A stretch of 64,000 bases of DNA from Planctomycetota bacterium. Lineage in GTDB: Bacteria; Planctomycetota; UBA1135; GCA-002686595. Positions within the stretch are counted from its first letter, which is position 1, and each line of letters starts with the position of its first letter. Below the pieces are notes generated by a model. It was not told where the DNA came from and ran no database searches. It was given only the letters and a program-made list of their open reading frames with translations. The translations under genes and the position numbers were made by a program. Positions 13,692 through 22,213 of the stretch are shown here, piece after piece. The DNA lies in the NCBI GenBank assembly GCA_016220085.1, contig JACRIN010000083.1, positions 1 through 64,000 on the forward strand, read 5' to 3'.

Positions 13692-14399
13692 CTAACGAGG
13701 CGCTCCGTCGACCGGCAAACCGTACGACGGGAGAGCGGAAAGACGTTCCAGGAGCGCGGGCACGGTGTCGGCGGCTCGGCCGGCCTGCGCGGCGAAGTTC
13801 GCTCGGAAGGAGAAGTGCCCGCCTTCGGTCGAACGATCGGTGACCGTGCGCAACGCGGCCCAGGGGATCTTGGCGGCCGCTGCGGCCGCCGCCGCCGCAG
13901 CGGTTTCCATGTCGGCGACGCACGGACCGGCGAAGGCCCGCGCGAGCCGCAGTCGACGCCAGAGCGACAGCACCGGACGATCCGCGGTCAAGAACCACCC
14001 CGCCGAGCCCGGCGCGACTTCGCGCCACGTCGCGAGCAAGTGCGGATCGGGCGCGCTCTCCCTGCCTTCGAGCCGCACGAAATCGGTCTGCGCCGCGCGC
14101 GTGCAGTGGACCAGCGAGCCGGGGACGAGCGACTGCCTCAGTCCGCCGCACGTGCCGACGACGAAGAGCCCGCTCCGCGCGCCCTCGGCGAACAGGATCG
14201 TCGCCGTGCGAGCCGCTTGGACCTTGCCGACGCCGGAGACCGCGGCGAGCACCCGCATCGTGCCGACCGGGATTTCCAGGATCTCGAGCCCGAGCACGCG
14301 CCGTCGCGCGGTCGCGCGCTCGCGGAGCGTGCCGAGCTCCTGCGGCAGCGCGGAGAGCAGCGCGAAAGGCGCGCGCGCGCCGTCCGTCGGAGTTTGCAT
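13692..14399 (-). CDS. Nucleoside phosphorylase-superfamily protein (MTA/SAH nucleosidase- or futalosine hydrolase-like)
   Basis: FVVGTCGGLRQSLVPGSLVHCTRAAQTDF...ADMETAAAA...LRTVTDRSTEGGHFSF. Confidence 0.75.
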   Translation of the reverse strand: MQTPTDGARAPFALLSALPQELGTLRERATARRRVLGLEILEIPVGTMRVLAAVSGVGKVQAARTATILFAEGARSGLFVVGTCGGLRQSLVPGSLVHCTRAAQTDFVRLEGRESAPDPHLLATWREVAPGSAGWFLTADRPVLSLWRRLRLARAFAGPCVADMETAAAAAAAAAAKIPWAALRTVTDRSTEGGHFSFRANFAAQAGRAADTVPALLERLSALPSYGLPVDGAPR

Positions 14400-14500
14400 C
14401 CTTCCATTTTGCCGGGCAACCCGCGGAGCGACAGCTCCCCGTCCTTTCTCCGTCGTCGGCGCGCGAATACAATCCCGCGTTCCCCTCGAGACGACCTCCC

Positions 14501-15433
14501 ATGCGCATTGCGATCACTGGCGCGACCGGCTTCATCGGCAAGTACATGGTCCGCGGCATGGCCGCGGCCGGACACGACGTCCGCGTGCTCGCCCGACGCG
14601 GGCGCGAGTCCACGATCGAGCAGCCGGGCCCGCGCCCGGTCGAGATCCACGTCGGCGATCTGATCGACCGCAAGTCGTTGGACGGATTCCTGTCGGGCTG
14701 CGACCTGCTCCTCCACCTCGCGAGCGCCCACGAGCACCTCGGCGACGTCGAGATGCAACAAGTGAACATCAAGGGGACCGAGCACCTGCTCGACGAAGCG
14801 AAGGAGCACGCGAACAAGGGCTTTCGCATCTGGGTCGTGTCGTCGGCGGTGATCGGCGCGCCGGTCTACAGCTACTACCGCGACTCCAAGCGCGTGCAGG
14901 AGAAGATCATCCGCGGCTCGGGCATCGAGTGGGCGTCGTTCCGACCGACGCTGGTGTACGGCGTCGGCGACTACCGGCACACCGCGCCGCTCCTGCGCAA
15001 GTGCGCGAAGCAAGGCGGGCGGATGCTGATCCCCCACGACGGCGTCTCGAAGATCAACCCGGTGCACGTCGACGACGTCGTCGACGCGGTCAAGCGCTTC
15101 TTCGGGTTCGAGCGCGGCGTCGACTGCGTGTACGAGCTCGCCGGCCCCGCCGCGATCCCCTACAACGAGTTCATCGACCTGACGATCCGCGCCGCCGGCG
15201 GAACGGTCCGCCGCCGCAACATCTCGAAGAAGTGGGCGGACCGCATGATCTTCCTGAAGGGCTTCTTCACCGACACGACGGCGGACCGGCGCGCGAGCTC
15301 GTACTTCAACCTCCACCACGAGCACAACATCACCAACGCGGTCGACGAACTCGGTTGGCAGCCGCGCAGCTACGCCGAGGGCATCGCGCAGGTCGCCTCG
15401 ACCGACTGGTGGAAGCACGACGAGCCGGCGTGA
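14501..15433 (+). CDS. NAD-dependent epimerase/dehydratase
   Basis: MRIAITGATGFIGKYMVRGMAAAGHDVRVLAR; Rossmann TGxxGxxG, YYRDSK motif. Confidence 0.9.
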   Translation: MRIAITGATGFIGKYMVRGMAAAGHDVRVLARRGRESTIEQPGPRPVEIHVGDLIDRKSLDGFLSGCDLLLHLASAHEHLGDVEMQQVNIKGTEHLLDEAKEHANKGFRIWVVSSAVIGAPVYSYYRDSKRVQEKIIRGSGIEWASFRPTLVYGVGDYRHTAPLLRKCAKQGGRMLIPHDGVSKINPVHVDDVVDAVKRFFGFERGVDCVYELAGPAAIPYNEFIDLTIRAAGGTVRRRNISKKWADRMIFLKGFFTDTTADRRASSYFNLHHEHNITNAVDELGWQPRSYAEGIAQVASTDWWKHDEPA

Positions 15434-15440
15434 GCCGCGC

Positions 15441-16991
15441 TCAACGCGTGGTCTCCGTGAGCCAGTAGTCGCCGTCGGCGTCGCACCGAGCGAACACGCC
15501 GGTGTCGAAGCGCTCGCTCGAGTCCGCGCGCGCTCCCGCGTCGGCGCCGCGCTGTCCGCACGCGCCGAGGAACCGCGACGGCCACGGTCGTCGGAGCACC
15601 AAGCGGCCGACCGTGCCTCGCGGAACCTTGCGGCCGAGCGCGTCGACGAGCGCGGGCTCGACGCCGAAGAACGGCCGACCCGACGAACCGGGTTTCGTCG
15701 CGTCGAGGCCGGGCAGCGGCGCGAAGAGGATCGAGCCCGACTCCGCGCTGAGCCACGCATCGACGATGGGGCAGCGCTCGCGGCCGACCTCCGCGCGGTA
15801 CCAGAACCACGTCGGGGGATCGAGCGGCGCGCCGAGCGAGCCCAAGAGCCGCAGCGAATCGAGCGCGAGCCCGCGCGAGCTTGCGCCGCCGTCGCGAGCC
15901 GGCGCGCGCAGCGCGTTCGCCGTCGAGCAGAGCACGGTCACGCGATGACGCGCAGCGACTTCCAGGTGGCGCGCGGGCTCGCGCTCGCTCGAGACGTCGT
16001 CGTGCAGCACGACCGTGACGCCGTTCGCGAGCGCGCCGTAGACGCCGTACGCGTGCCACGCGGCGGAGCTCGGATCCGACGTGCAATAGAACACGTCGCC
16101 CTCGCGGAGGTCGAAGGCGTACTGCGCGGACAGGTACGCCGAAACCACGTAGCCGCCGGTCGCGTGCACGACGCCGTGGTCGGCGTTCGCGGCGTGGAGC
16201 ACGCAGAGCGGTGCGTCGGCGTCGAGCGACGCGGGCGGGCACTCGTCGCTTGCCACCGCGACGACATCGTGGAACCAGAGGTCGCGTCCGTGACTCCAAG
16301 GCACGTGGCCCGAGCCGCGACGCACGACGACGACGTGCTTCACGGTCGGCGCGTGCTCGAGCGCGGCGTCGACCGTCCCCTTCGTCGAACCAGCCGAACC
16401 GCCGACGCGGTCGACGTCGGTGGTGACGACGAGCACGCAGCTCGAGGCGCACAGACGCTCGCGGAGTGCGTCCGCGGACACCGTGAACGGGACCACGACG
16501 TGCGGCGCGCCGAGGCGGGCGCATGCGAGCATCGCGACGACGAGTTCGGGGATCGCAGGCAGATGGATCGCGACCGGCGTGCCGCGCGCGACCCCGAGCG
16601 CCGCGAGCGCGTTCGCGAAGCGGCTGACCTCGACGTGGAGCTCGGTGAAGGTCAGCGTGCGGCGCTCCGCGAGCTCCCCGTCGAAGATCAGCGCGAGCCG
16701 TCCGCCCGACAGCGACTCGATGTGCTGATCGAGGCACACCGCCGACGCGTTCGAGCGCGCGCCGACGAACCAGCGCGCCGAGCCGGTCGCCGACGCGTCG
16801 AACGCGCGCGCCCAAGTTCGTTGCCACGGCAGCTCGCGTCCGATGCGGCTCCAAAAGGCCTCCGGATCGCGAAGCGACTCCGCGTACATCCGTTCCCGCG
16901 TCGACGGGTCGTTCAGACGGCTGTGCTGGCGGAACTCCGGCGTCGGCGGAAAGCTCCGACCGTGTGGGAGGCCGCGATCGGTCTCGGACAT
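15441..16991 (-). CDS. Acetyl-CoA synthetase-like protein, truncated and active-site degenerate (predicted pseudoenzyme)
   Basis: Acs-like N-domain (SLRDPEAFWSRIGRELPW, RWFVGARSNASAVCLDQH, RFANALAALGV, IPELVVAMLACARLGAPH, HATGGYVVSAY, LRLLGSLGAPLDP, RPWPSRFLGACG) but motifs altered and C-terminal domain absent. Confidence 0.85.
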   Translation of the reverse strand: MSETDRGLPHGRSFPPTPEFRQHSRLNDPSTRERMYAESLRDPEAFWSRIGRELPWQRTWARAFDASATGSARWFVGARSNASAVCLDQHIESLSGGRLALIFDGELAERRTLTFTELHVEVSRFANALAALGVARGTPVAIHLPAIPELVVAMLACARLGAPHVVVPFTVSADALRERLCASSCVLVVTTDVDRVGGSAGSTKGTVDAALEHAPTVKHVVVVRRGSGHVPWSHGRDLWFHDVVAVASDECPPASLDADAPLCVLHAANADHGVVHATGGYVVSAYLSAQYAFDLREGDVFYCTSDPSSAAWHAYGVYGALANGVTVVLHDDVSSEREPARHLEVAARHRVTVLCSTANALRAPARDGGASSRGLALDSLRLLGSLGAPLDPPTWFWYRAEVGRERCPIVDAWLSAESGSILFAPLPGLDATKPGSSGRPFFGVEPALVDALGRKVPRGTVGRLVLRRPWPSRFLGACGQRGADAGARADSSERFDTGVFARCDADGDYWLTETTR

Positions 16992-17061
16992 GCGAGCGTC
17001 TCCTGACTGTGAGCGCCCCGAGCCTAGCGCGTCGGCGCGCGCGCGGAAACCGGCGCGATCA

Positions 17062-17081
17062 CGCGGAGCGCTTGCTCCGCG
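17062..17081. terminator. Perfect 8-bp hairpin (CGCGGAGC-gctt-GCTCCGCG) between radical SAM gene and Acs-like gene
   Basis: Direct inverted repeat in intergenic region; no clear T-tract. Confidence 0.4.
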
Positions 17082-17117
17082 CGGAGCGTACGAGCCCTAG
17101 CGGGGCGGCGCATGCGC

Positions 17118-18542
17118 TCACGCGCGCTTGGCGAACAGCGTGAAGTAGCGCACGACCTTGCCGGCGAGCCGACCGGGGTGACGGAACTCGCGCGCGAGCC
17201 GCTTGGGACGGGTGTAGAAGCGCCGATAGCCCTCGCGGATCTTCTTCTCGATCTGCGCGGCGGTCATGTGCTCATTGCCTTCGAGCGCCTGGAAGCCGGT
17301 CATCAACGCGAAGTCGAAGTCGCGCTCGCCGCGCAGCATCTTGTAGAGCGGCGTGCCCGGATACGCGGTCACCGCGCAGAACTGCACTTGGTCGGGATCG
17401 CAGTGCTCGACCAGAGCGAAGGTCTCGTCGACCATCTGCGGCGTCTCCTCGGGGAAGCCGACCATGCAGAACGCGCGCGTCTCGATGCCGAGGTCGCGGC
17501 ACGCGTCGAACACCTCGCGGCAGCGCTCGAAGTCGATCGCCTTGTTGCCGTCGAGCAGCTTTGCGCCGCAGTGCTTCTTCTGGATCTCGACGTTGCCCGA
17601 CTCGACGCCGAGAGAGATGTGCCGACAGCCGGCCTTCGCCATCTTCTCGAGCAGCGCGCGGTCGAGCGTCTTCACCGCGGTCTCGCACTGCCAGACGAGG
17701 TCGAGCTTCTCGGCGAGGATCCCGTCGCAGATCGCGTGCACGCGATCCTTGCGGGTCGTGAAAATCGGGTCGCGGAAGATGACGTGGTGCACGTTCCACT
17801 TGCGGACGATCTCGACGAGCTCGCGGACGACGTGCTCGGGCGAGCGGAAACGGAAGCGCAGCCCCTGCGCGAGCGTGTAACCGCAGAACGAGCAGTCCAA
17901 TGGACAGCCGCGCGACGACTTCACCGTCGTGATCGGCCCGTCGACGCCCGGGAACCGGTAGAGCGCGTTGTCGAGCAGGTGCCGCGCGGGCAAGGGCAAC
18001 TGGTCGAGCTGCGCGATCTTCTCGCGCTCGGCTTCGTGCACGACCTTGCCGTCGGCGCCGAGCCATGACGTACCTGCGGTGCCGGCGAGCGGCGCGCCGT
18101 CGCGCACGCGGCGGGCGAGCTCGCGGACGGTGTACTCGGGCTCGCCGCGGACGACCACGTCGACGTCGCCGCCCTTGAAGATCTCGTCGGGCGCGAACGT
18201 CACCTGCGAGCCGAGCATCGCGACCGGCTTGCCGAGCCGCTTGCGCAGCGTGCGCGCGAGCGCCAGGTCGCGATCGAGCGACGTGCTCGAGCTGTCCAGC
18301 AGCACGAGATCGGGAGCGAGCGACACGACGCGCGCCTCCGCGGCCGGCGAATCGAGGCCTTGCGCGTCGCTGTCGACCAACGCGACCTCGAATCCGCCGG
18401 CCTCGAGCGCGCTCGCGACGTGCGCGAGCTCGATCGGCGGGTACAAGAGCCCCGGGTTGACGGCCATGCCGAAGCCCCCCATCAGCCCTCGGCTGACGCG
18501 GAACTCCGGGGGGCTGGGCGGATTGACGAGGACGACTTTCAC
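17118..18542 (-). CDS. B12-binding domain radical SAM protein
   Basis: MKVVLVNPPSPPEF... N-terminal cobalamin-binding type domain, then KSSRGCPLDCSFCGYTLAQG (CxxxCxxC). Confidence 0.93.
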   Translation of the reverse strand: MKVVLVNPPSPPEFRVSRGLMGGFGMAVNPGLLYPPIELAHVASALEAGGFEVALVDSDAQGLDSPAAEARVVSLAPDLVLLDSSSTSLDRDLALARTLRKRLGKPVAMLGSQVTFAPDEIFKGGDVDVVVRGEPEYTVRELARRVRDGAPLAGTAGTSWLGADGKVVHEAEREKIAQLDQLPLPARHLLDNALYRFPGVDGPITTVKSSRGCPLDCSFCGYTLAQGLRFRFRSPEHVVRELVEIVRKWNVHHVIFRDPIFTTRKDRVHAICDGILAEKLDLVWQCETAVKTLDRALLEKMAKAGCRHISLGVESGNVEIQKKHCGAKLLDGNKAIDFERCREVFDACRDLGIETRAFCMVGFPEETPQMVDETFALVEHCDPDQVQFCAVTAYPGTPLYKMLRGERDFDFALMTGFQALEGNEHMTAAQIEKKIREGYRRFYTRPKRLAREFRHPGRLAGKVVRYFTLFAKRA

Positions 18543-18636: not shown

Positions 18637-21063
18637 TCACGCCTTGCGCAGATCGCCGCCGAGCTCGGTCGCCGCGCGTTCGACGCGCTGAAGGAACTTC
18701 TGCGCGTCTTGGTCGGTCAGGGTGCGCTCGTCGGACTCGAGATGGACGTGGTACGCGAGCGATTTGCGGCCTGGGCCGACGTTTGGGCCGGTGTAGACGT
18801 CGAAGAGCTCGATCGCTCCCGCCAACCCCTTCGCCGCGCGTTCGATCGCGACGCGGACGTCTTCGGCCGCGACCGCAGCCGGCAACGCGAGCGCGACGTC
18901 GAGCTTGACGCCCGGGAAGCGCGGCATCGGCCGATAGATCTTCTCGCGCACCGGCGCGGCGAGCAGCGCGTCGAGGAAAAGTGTCGCGAGCGCGACGTCG
19001 CTCTTCTGCTCGCCGACGAGCCCGAGCTCGCGCTCGACCCGCGGATCGAGCGCCGCCAGCCAGCCGAGCTCGTGCTCGCCGAGGCGGATCGCGAGCGTCT
19101 TGCCCGGGTGCAGGTACGGCGCGCCGTCGACGTGCTCGACCTTCGCGAAGGCCGGAGCCTCGAGCCGCAGCCCGAAGCACAGGTCGTCGATCGCACCGCG
19201 CAACGCCGCGAGCGCGTTGTCGTCGAAGCGCGCGTTCGCCGCCGCGGGCTCGCGCGCGACGAGCAACACGAGCTCGTGCACTTCGGCGGGCTCGCCGTTC
19301 TGCGCCGCGCACTCCGGCCGGTAGCCCTTGCCGAGCTCGAAGAGTCGCACTTCCTTCGCGTGCCGCCGATTGTGCTCGACGGTCGCCAGCAAGCTCGGCG
19401 CGACCGCGCGGCGGATCCGCGTCAGGCCCTCCGCGACCGGATTGATCACCGCGCAATGCGGCAGCTCGGCGAGACCGAGTTTGGCGAGCAGCGCGTCCGC
19501 GACAAACGAGTACCCAATCGTCTGACGGAACCGCCCGACGCCCGCGAGCCGGTCCTCGACCTTGCGCACGAGCGCGCGCCGTCGATCGACCGGCGGCGCG
19601 GCGAGCGAGCCTTCGAGCCGGTGCTCGGGCACGTTGCCGTACCGGAAGATGCGGCCGACCTCCTCGACCAGATCCTGCTCGAGCGAGATGTCCTTCGTCG
19701 CGCGGACCGACGGCACCGCGACGTCGAGCCCGCCGTGGGAGCTCGTCACGCCGAAGCCGAGGCGCGTCAGGATGCCGACGATCTCGCCGTCTGCGATCGG
19801 CGCCCCGAGGCGTTTGCGCACGATGTCCGGCCGGACGCGCACGGTGCGAGCGGGATCCTTCCAGCGCCCCGCGTCGGCGAGCGGCGCCGGCAGCACGAGG
19901 TCGGGTTGGATCGCGGAGAGCAACCTGACCAAATGGCCCGCGGCGTCGAGCGCGAGCGTCGGTGAGAGATTCTTCTCGAAGCGCGCCGACGCGTCGGTGC
20001 GCAGGCCGAGCCGCGCCGACGTGCGTCGGACGACCGCGGGTTGGAAGCTCGCGACTTCGAGCAAGAGCTCGCGCGTTTCGACCGCGACCTTGCTCTCCTC
20101 GCCGCCCATGATGCCGGCGAGCGCGACCGGCTGCTCGCCCGCGCAGATCAAGAGGTCGTCGGTCTCGAGCTTGCGTTCGACGGCGTCGAGCGTCTGCATG
20201 CGCTCGCCGGGGCGCGCCTTGCGCACGACGATCGGCCGGCCGGCGAGGCGCGTGCGATCGAACAGGTGGTTCGGTTGCCCGAGATCGAGCATCACGAAGT
20301 TCGACACGTCGACCAAAAGGTCGATCGGCCGTTGACCGACCGCGAGCAGGAGCCGACGCAACCACTCGGGACTGCGCTCGGCGCGCACGCCGTCGATCGG
20401 CAGCGCGAGGTAGCGCGGGCAATCGTCGGTCTCGACGCGCACTTCCCACGGCCGCCAGTCGCCGGTGCGCGGCAGCGAGGTGTCGAGCGCCTTCAGCGGA
20501 CGCTGGAAGATCGCCGCGAGCTCCGCGGCCATCCCGCGATGGCCCCACAGGTCCGGACGGTGCGTCACCGACTTGTTGTCGATCTCGATCACCCAATCGA
20601 CCAGGTCGAGCGCGTCCGCGACGCGCTTGCCGATCGGCGTCTCGTCGGGAAGGACCCAGATGCCGTTGTGCTCGTCGCCCAGGCCGAGCTCGCGCTCGGA
20701 GCAGATCATCCCGCACGACTCTTGCCCGCGGATCTTCGACTTCTTGATCTTGAAGTCGGCGCCGAGCGTCGTGCCGATCGTCGCGACCGCGACCTTTTGG
20801 CCGCGCGCGACGTTCGGCGCGCCGCACACGATCTGCACGAGCTCGCCCGCGCCGACGTCGACCTTGCAGATCGAGAGGTGATCGCTGTCGGGGTGCGCCG
20901 CGCGCTCGGCGACGAAACCGACGGTGACGTCGGACAACGCGGGCGCGAAACGGGCCAGGCCCTCGACCTCGCAGGTCGACAGCGTCAGGTTCGTGCGCAC
21001 GTCCTCCGGCGAGATGCCGGCGAGATCGACGTGCCGTTGGAGCCAGCGGTACGAGAGGTGCAT
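18637..21063 (-). CDS. pheT: Phenylalanyl-tRNA synthetase beta subunit
   Basis: MHLSYRWLQRHVDLAGISPEDVRTNLTLSTCEVEGL...CGAPNVARGQKV...FDVYTGPNVGPGRKSLAYHVHLESDERTLTDQDAQ. Confidence 0.97.
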   Translation of the reverse strand: MHLSYRWLQRHVDLAGISPEDVRTNLTLSTCEVEGLARFAPALSDVTVGFVAERAAHPDSDHLSICKVDVGAGELVQIVCGAPNVARGQKVAVATIGTTLGADFKIKKSKIRGQESCGMICSERELGLGDEHNGIWVLPDETPIGKRVADALDLVDWVIEIDNKSVTHRPDLWGHRGMAAELAAIFQRPLKALDTSLPRTGDWRPWEVRVETDDCPRYLALPIDGVRAERSPEWLRRLLLAVGQRPIDLLVDVSNFVMLDLGQPNHLFDRTRLAGRPIVVRKARPGERMQTLDAVERKLETDDLLICAGEQPVALAGIMGGEESKVAVETRELLLEVASFQPAVVRRTSARLGLRTDASARFEKNLSPTLALDAAGHLVRLLSAIQPDLVLPAPLADAGRWKDPARTVRVRPDIVRKRLGAPIADGEIVGILTRLGFGVTSSHGGLDVAVPSVRATKDISLEQDLVEEVGRIFRYGNVPEHRLEGSLAAPPVDRRRALVRKVEDRLAGVGRFRQTIGYSFVADALLAKLGLAELPHCAVINPVAEGLTRIRRAVAPSLLATVEHNRRHAKEVRLFELGKGYRPECAAQNGEPAEVHELVLLVAREPAAANARFDDNALAALRGAIDDLCFGLRLEAPAFAKVEHVDGAPYLHPGKTLAIRLGEHELGWLAALDPRVERELGLVGEQKSDVALATLFLDALLAAPVREKIYRPMPRFPGVKLDVALALPAAVAAEDVRVAIERAAKGLAGAIELFDVYTGPNVGPGRKSLAYHVHLESDERTLTDQDAQKFLQRVERAATELGGDLRKA

Positions 21064-22124
21064 CAGAACTGCTCCAGGAAACGCAGGTCGCCGGACAGGA
21101 GGAGGCGCACGTCGTCGATGCCGTAGCGCAGCATCACCAGGCGCGAGAGCCCGAGGCCGAACGCGAAGCCGCTCCATTCCTCCGGATCGAGCCCGCACTC
21201 CTTCAGCACGTTCGGGTGCACCAGGCCGCAAGGCAGGAGCTCGATCCAAGTGCTGCGCTTGCAGACGCTGCAGCCTTCCTTGCAGAACGGACAGCGCGCG
21301 TCGAGCTCGAAGCCGGGCTCGACGAACGGGAAGTACCCCGGGCGCAGACGGATCTCGATCTCGCGGCCGAACACGCCGCGCAAGAGCGTCTTCATCGCGC
21401 CGATCAGGTGACCGACGGAGATGTCCTTGCCGACGACCAGGCCCTCCATCTGATGGAACGTGTGCTCGTGGGATGCGTCGGTCGTTTCCTGACGGAACAC
21501 CTTGCCGGGCACGATCGCGCGGAACGGCGGCGCGAAGCGGCCGGCGCGGACCTCCTCGGCGAGCCGCTTCAGGCCGCGCGCTTGCACCGCGGACGTGTGC
21601 GTGCGCAACACGAGCTTGCCCTCGGGATCGAGGCGGAACGTGTCCTGCATGTCGCGCGCCGGGTGGTCGCGCGGGATGTTGAGCGCCTCGAAGTTGTGGT
21701 AGTCGGTCTCGATCTCCGGGCCGTCGAGCACGACGTAGCCCATCGACGTGAAGAGATCCTCGAGCTCGCGCGTCACGGCGACCAGCGGATGCAACCCGCC
21801 GCGCGCGGCGCGCTGACCGGGAAGCGTCGCATCGAAGCCGGAGCCGGCGCGCTCGCGTTCCATCGCGCGCGTCGCGAGACGCTCACGCGCTTCGGCGAGC
21901 GCGAGCGTGATCGCTCCCTTCAGCTCGTTCGCGCGCTTGCCGGCGAGCGGACGCTCGGGCCCCGGCAGCGTCGGGATCGCGGCGAGCAGCGCGGCGACCA
22001 CGCCGCCCTTGTCGAGCGTCTCGCGTTCGACCTGGCGCAGGACGTCTTCTGCGCTCTCCTGCGACTCCGCGGCGGCGATGCGCGCACGAATTGGTTCGAA
22101 CAAGGACTCAAGCGTCTCGGTCAT
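21063..22124 (-). CDS. pheS: Phenylalanyl-tRNA synthetase alpha subunit
   Basis: MTETLESLFEPIRARI...HPLVAVTRELEDLFTSMGYVVLDGPEIETDYHNFEALNIPRDHPARDMQDTF...GFAFGLGLSRLVMLRYGIDDVR. Confidence 0.98.
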   Translation of the reverse strand: MTETLESLFEPIRARIAAAESQESAEDVLRQVERETLDKGGVVAALLAAIPTLPGPERPLAGKRANELKGAITLALAEARERLATRAMERERAGSGFDATLPGQRAARGGLHPLVAVTRELEDLFTSMGYVVLDGPEIETDYHNFEALNIPRDHPARDMQDTFRLDPEGKLVLRTHTSAVQARGLKRLAEEVRAGRFAPPFRAIVPGKVFRQETTDASHEHTFHQMEGLVVGKDISVGHLIGAMKTLLRGVFGREIEIRLRPGYFPFVEPGFELDARCPFCKEGCSVCKRSTWIELLPCGLVHPNVLKECGLDPEEWSGFAFGLGLSRLVMLRYGIDDVRLLLSGDLRFLEQF

Positions 22125-22182
22125 CGTGCGTTCCGGCGTGGTCTCGTTGGGGTGCGTCGGGCTTCGAGTGCGTTTCCGAAGC

Positions 22183-22213
22183 ACGAACGGCCCGGGAGGC
22201 CCGGGCCGTTCGT
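22183..22213 (-). terminator. Perfect 14-bp stem / 3-nt loop hairpin between rplT and pheS (terminator/attenuator candidate)
   Basis: acgaacggcccggg-agg-cccgggccgttcgt read directly; no U-tract. Confidence 0.55.

Follow-up and report, generated by a model that had tools for sequence, protein, structure and literature searches.

AMP-forming acetyl-CoA synthetases (Acs or AcsA) have been described in Salmonella (structures 1PG3, 1PG4 and 2P2F) and in Bacillus (AcsA, PMC11255334). The definitions of A5 (DTWWQTET), A7 ((S/T)GD) and the other Acs motifs used below are those listed for the Bacillus enzyme. A pseudoenzyme derived from Acs was not found in the open-access papers searched. Pseudoenzymes usually originate by duplication. 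In Trypanosoma, the AdoMetDC prozyme, a paralogue devoid of catalysis, activates the functional enzyme, and structural work has shown the two to form a heterodimer (PMC5201418).

Here we analyze a window of 64,000 nucleotides from a Planctomycetota bacterium (assembly GCA_016220085.1, contig JACRIN010000083.1), which contains a gene, here called psAcs, at the locus where related genera carry their normal Acs. Like the known enzymes it comprises the ACAS_N and AMP-binding regions and aligns to the N-domain; unlike them it has no C-terminal domain and has lost most of the residues expected to contact the substrates. We argue that psAcs is probably the ancestral AMP-forming Acs of the family, which at its own locus and on a single occasion became a non-catalytic pseudoenzyme that folds and acts by protein contact.

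A truncated Acs in an intact frame

Four genomes of the genus were compared: G000, the genome of the window, and G001, G002 and G003, which are other species. The features of the gene are:

15441..16991, minus strand: psAcs, truncated Acs N-domain, predicted non-catalytic, 516 aa (open reading frame and profile matches)
17000..17004, minus strand: Shine-Dalgarno-like AGGAG, 8 nt before the psAcs ATG (AGGAG at the same place in G002)
16149..16196, minus strand: degenerate A3/P-loop region, residues 266-281, HAANADHGVVHATGGY (motif alignment)
15735..15758, minus strand: degenerate A5, residues 412-419, AWLSAESG where TWWQTETG is expected (motif alignment)
15495..15509, minus strand: degenerate A7, residues 495-499, FDTGV (Asp to Val in all three species with the short form)

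The gene is a single open frame of 516 codons with an ATG start, in line with the sequence-only reading, which had also proposed that the N-domain follows Acs almost end to end and stops before the hinge. Both proposals hold: phmmer aligns residues 26-512 to residues 18-513 of Salmonella Acs at about 36% identity, just short of the hinge, and the protein ends in YWLTETTR. Pfam recognizes ACAS_N at residues 33-86 (58 bits, cut-off 27) and AMP-binding at 97-470 (182 bits, cut-off 29.9), each above the gathering score, and gives no match to AMP-binding_C. The NCBIfam models for acetate--CoA ligase hit psAcs at E 1e-129 or better despite bit scores below both cut-offs (432 against 725 for TIGR02188, 464 against 657 for NF001208).

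The stop codons of psAcs and the convergent epimerase gene, which ends at 15433, are 7 bp apart, as they are in G002. This spacing had been noted before, together with the claim that no C-domain is left over, and the genome agrees: each PF13193 match in G000, G001 and G002 sits within a long frame. A split or translocated C-domain is thereby ruled out for these three genomes as assembled.

Structure prediction yielded a model with the Acs N-domain fold. The AlphaFold2 model (pLDDT 85, pTM 0.90) was based on 45 aligned sequences, mostly active Acs proteins, and leans to that fold as a result. Its best PDB matches are Acs structures, with Salmonella Acs on top (TM-score 0.92 by query length). 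The model shows that the sequence is compatible with the fold, which is compatibility rather than proof.

Loss of motifs and ligand contacts

All motif readings made from the letters alone are correct (HAANADHGVVHATGGY, AWLSAESG, FDTGVFARCDADGDYW and the YWLTETTR end). In place of the P-loop-like A3 motif YTSGSTGKPKG, psAcs reads HAANADHGVVH, and the motif is lost in all three species. A5 has become DAWLSAES and A7 has become TGV, while the frame stops before both the A8 hinge and the catalytic Lys of A10 in the C-terminal domain. Judged by A3, A5, A7, the missing C-domain and the NCBIfam cut-offs, psAcs is outside the catalytic Acs family, and catalysis by its predicted product is very unlikely.

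The losses fall preferentially on the ligand contacts. For the ligand contacts we used those residues of Salmonella Acs that we take to be the contacts in its published structures. The 168 near-invariant N-domain columns then comprise 22 contacts and 146 other sites, of which psAcs of G000 retains 4 and 101, respectively. Both G000 and G002 retain 4 of the 22 contacts against 97 of the 146 others (Fisher p about 3e-5), and in all three species these numbers are 3 and 74 (p about 0.001). Among the 18 contacts lost in G000 are the P-loop, Asp500, Thr311, Trp414, Phe163, Gly165 and Arg191, whereas all three species still have Gly387, Asp411 and Trp413.

The same form in two other species

G002 (77-81% identity) and G001 (44-46%) have orthologues that are truncated alike and have lost the same motifs, and both short forms end straight after DADGxxW. 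The sequence-only reading had named a sequencing error that restores the C-domain as a possible refutation. Such an error, or a contig artefact, is ruled out by the occurrence of the same architecture in three separate assemblies. No other short Acs forms were seen among the matches listed in 154 genomes of the order, the remaining short frames being located at or near contig ends.

In the protein tree the three psAcs forms make up one clade (100/99 support), adjoining the intact-looking gene of G003. The latter is a type A Acs in which the P-loop and the acetate region are intact; the contig breaks off after 331 aligned residues, leaving the C-domain beyond view. The psAcs branches are long, with 2.24 changes per column for G001, where the median of the end branches is 0.21. 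Ten near-invariant sites carry an identical replacement in G000 and G001, including Asp500Val (D500V), Gln415Ser (Q415S) and Thr311Ala (T311A). Given these shared replacements, the inactivation most likely predates the split of the three species. With an enzyme fold in the model and catalytic residues lost across three species, psAcs matches a pseudoenzyme in these respects.

An ancestral gene changed in place

The genes that fix the position of psAcs are:

17118..18542, minus strand: B12-binding radical SAM (rSAM) gene, upstream of psAcs, conserved neighbour (profile match and synteny)
18637..21063, minus strand: pheT, syntenic anchor (synteny)
14501..15433, plus strand: convergent NAD-dependent epimerase/SDR, anchor on the other side (profile match and synteny)
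13692..14399, minus strand: nucleoside-phosphorylase-like (HpnG-like) gene, syntenic anchor (profile match and synteny)

The order infC-rplT-pheS-pheT-rSAM-acs, followed by the convergent epimerase and the HpnG-like gene, recurs in several genera of the family. A full-length Acs occupies the acs position in G007, G015 and G033 (in part also in G022 and G009), and the short form does so in G000, G001 and G002. The conserved order thus shows that psAcs is orthologous by position to the resident, ancestral Acs of the family, which was changed in situ; a recent duplicate is ruled out by synteny. With the intact type A genes of G003 and of other genera (for example L007, L005 and L013) psAcs shares its position and upstream genes. 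Those genes differ from it in having intact motifs and full length, except that the G003 gene is cut by its contig end. The gene that separates acs from the epimerase differs from genus to genus and gave no lead.

Two further observations concern this region. The radical SAM (HpnJ-like), epimerase (HpnA-like) and nucleosidase (HpnG-like) genes in 13692-18542 of the window recall families of hopanoid clusters, far below the curated cut-offs, and this gene set is conserved in much of the family. In addition, pheS of the window (21063-22184) is 87% identical to the G002 copy (L061:7073-8620) and 93% to that of the more distant G001. The G002 copy matches only from residue 65 and the gap to rplT is wider in G002, possibly through a frameshift, recombination or an assembly problem.

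A second Acs from another clade

G000, G001 and G002 each contain a second, intact Acs (type B; G000:C28) that belongs to another clade than psAcs. Type B was not seen in G003, the species with the intact-looking ancestral gene. The Acs of genus g26 shares 87-90% identity with type B of G000 (copies compared: G000:C28, G067:C21 and G028:C156, that is, L002, L092 and L091). No acs was found at the ancestral locus of this genus, and in G067 the rSAM and epimerase genes end about 50 bp apart. Genus g26 has type B and has deleted the old acs cleanly. In G000, type B looks like a replacement for the resident Acs and presumably performs the acetate chemistry. Identity between the two genera is lower than for type B in both pheT (about 61%) and the radical SAM protein (about 76%), and the G067 type B copy groups within those of the window's genus (weak support). 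Horizontal transfer of type B is possible.

Selection on psAcs

Between G000 and G002 the omega of psAcs is 0.135 (bootstrap 0.10-0.17), with a 2dlnL of 165-169 against omega = 1 and a dS of 0.77 that is similar to most neighbours. In GC-rich DNA a raw comparison of omega with 1 is biased (medians of 0.54-0.72 under neutrality), and neutral simulations therefore served as the yardstick: in these, omega was always at least 0.41 and 2dlnL at most 33. The G000-G001 omega was left aside because the pairwise dS is saturated (31.7). Constraint is spread evenly along the whole gene. The three indels between G000 and G002 (27, 18 and 3 nt) are all multiples of three, and the comparison shows neither stops nor frameshifts. 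Stop counts alone are weak, as about 6-15% of the runs simulated at 85% GC give a stop-free frame by chance. Purifying selection on psAcs is weakened but real. Compared with most neighbours (omega 0.02-0.03) its value is about 4-6 times as high; type B Acs has 0.013.

These results bear on the earlier proposal of a maintained non-catalytic Acs paralogue. "Maintained" and "non-catalytic" are supported, given the shared truncation and replacements, the low omega and the in-frame indels; "paralogue" is not, as synteny makes the gene a positional orthologue. A pseudogene, recognizable by frame breaks or neutral dN/dS, does not fit psAcs.

The amino acid composition has changed too. Within the first 516 residues the number of Lys is down from about 20 to 2-4 and that of Ile from 22-27 to 7-8, and Ala is raised. 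The copy in the window contains 4 Lys in 516 residues and is poor in Ile, a drift common to G001 and G002. Depletion of Lys and Ile is the drift expected for relaxed sites in a GC-rich genome. Together with the high omega and the long G001 branch it is a sign of relaxed selection and perhaps of slow decay.

It might accordingly be argued that psAcs is a slowly decaying relic, whose function was lost once type B arrived and whose apparent constraint stems from the avoidance of toxic misfolding and from stop codons being scarce at high GC. The relaxed omega, the GC-driven drift and the G001 branch would fit, as would the chance frequency of stop-free frames, and g26 shows that the old gene is dispensable when type B is present. 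Nonetheless, we consider a relic rather unlikely: omega and 2dlnL lie far beyond the neutral simulations, all indels between G000 and G002 are in frame, no part of the gene stands out in its constraint, and all three species have retained psAcs although g26 shows that clean deletion is possible.

Less credible still is a remodelled pocket, in which the N-domain of this ANL enzyme was neofunctionalized for a new ligand or activity. The scaffold is retained while the pocket is replaced, and several derived residues are common to all three species. At most of the replaced positions, however, G001 has another residue than G000/G002. The stretch around residues 301-400, which holds part of the pocket, is where G000 and G001 are least identical, and a new conserved polar cluster was not seen. 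An active or ligand-sensing variant (a sensor of AMP, CoA or acetyl-CoA, in keeping with the acyl-CoA/AMP sensor suggested earlier) is highly improbable, since the CoA, AMP/ATP and acetate contacts are preferentially lost and the C-domain is missing, even though three contacts persist in all species and the model suggests an Acs N-domain.

A possible role through protein contact

The pseudoenzyme reading is as follows. In the common ancestor of the three species the contacts to ATP, acetate and CoA were most likely lost and the C-terminal lid domain disappeared, and acetate activation presumably passed to type B. What remains is a fast-evolving N-domain, held in frame under weakened purifying selection. 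Its product is probably a folded domain that works by touching another protein, be it as a dead subunit or as a scaffold. A role as regulator or scaffold is possible. The first candidate is modulation of the catalytic type B Acs, which co-occurs with psAcs in three of three species; the second, by position, is joint action with the radical SAM protein encoded upstream. Neither candidate partner requires psAcs: type B occurs in g26, which lacks psAcs, and the rSAM gene in G003, which lacks a pseudo form.

More specifically, the incoming Acs may have taken over catalysis and left the N-domain of the resident one as a dedicated, conserved pseudo-Acs, that is, an obligate non-catalytic regulator or subunit such as a prozyme-like partner. 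We regard this version as doubtful. The likeness to the AdoMetDC prozyme, a dead homologue that coexists with an active member of its family, is by analogy only; there a heterodimer is formed, whereas the type B partner of psAcs is a candidate and comes from another clade.

Conclusions

For annotation the locus carries a warning, as a gene with such a strong match to acetate--CoA ligase can hardly be one. For the family, psAcs represents a resident gene that was converted in place, apparently when an Acs of another clade assumed its task. Relatives display alternative states of the same locus: intact-looking in G003, dead but kept in G000, G001 and G002, and cleanly deleted in g26. This range of states makes decay versus co-option directly testable.
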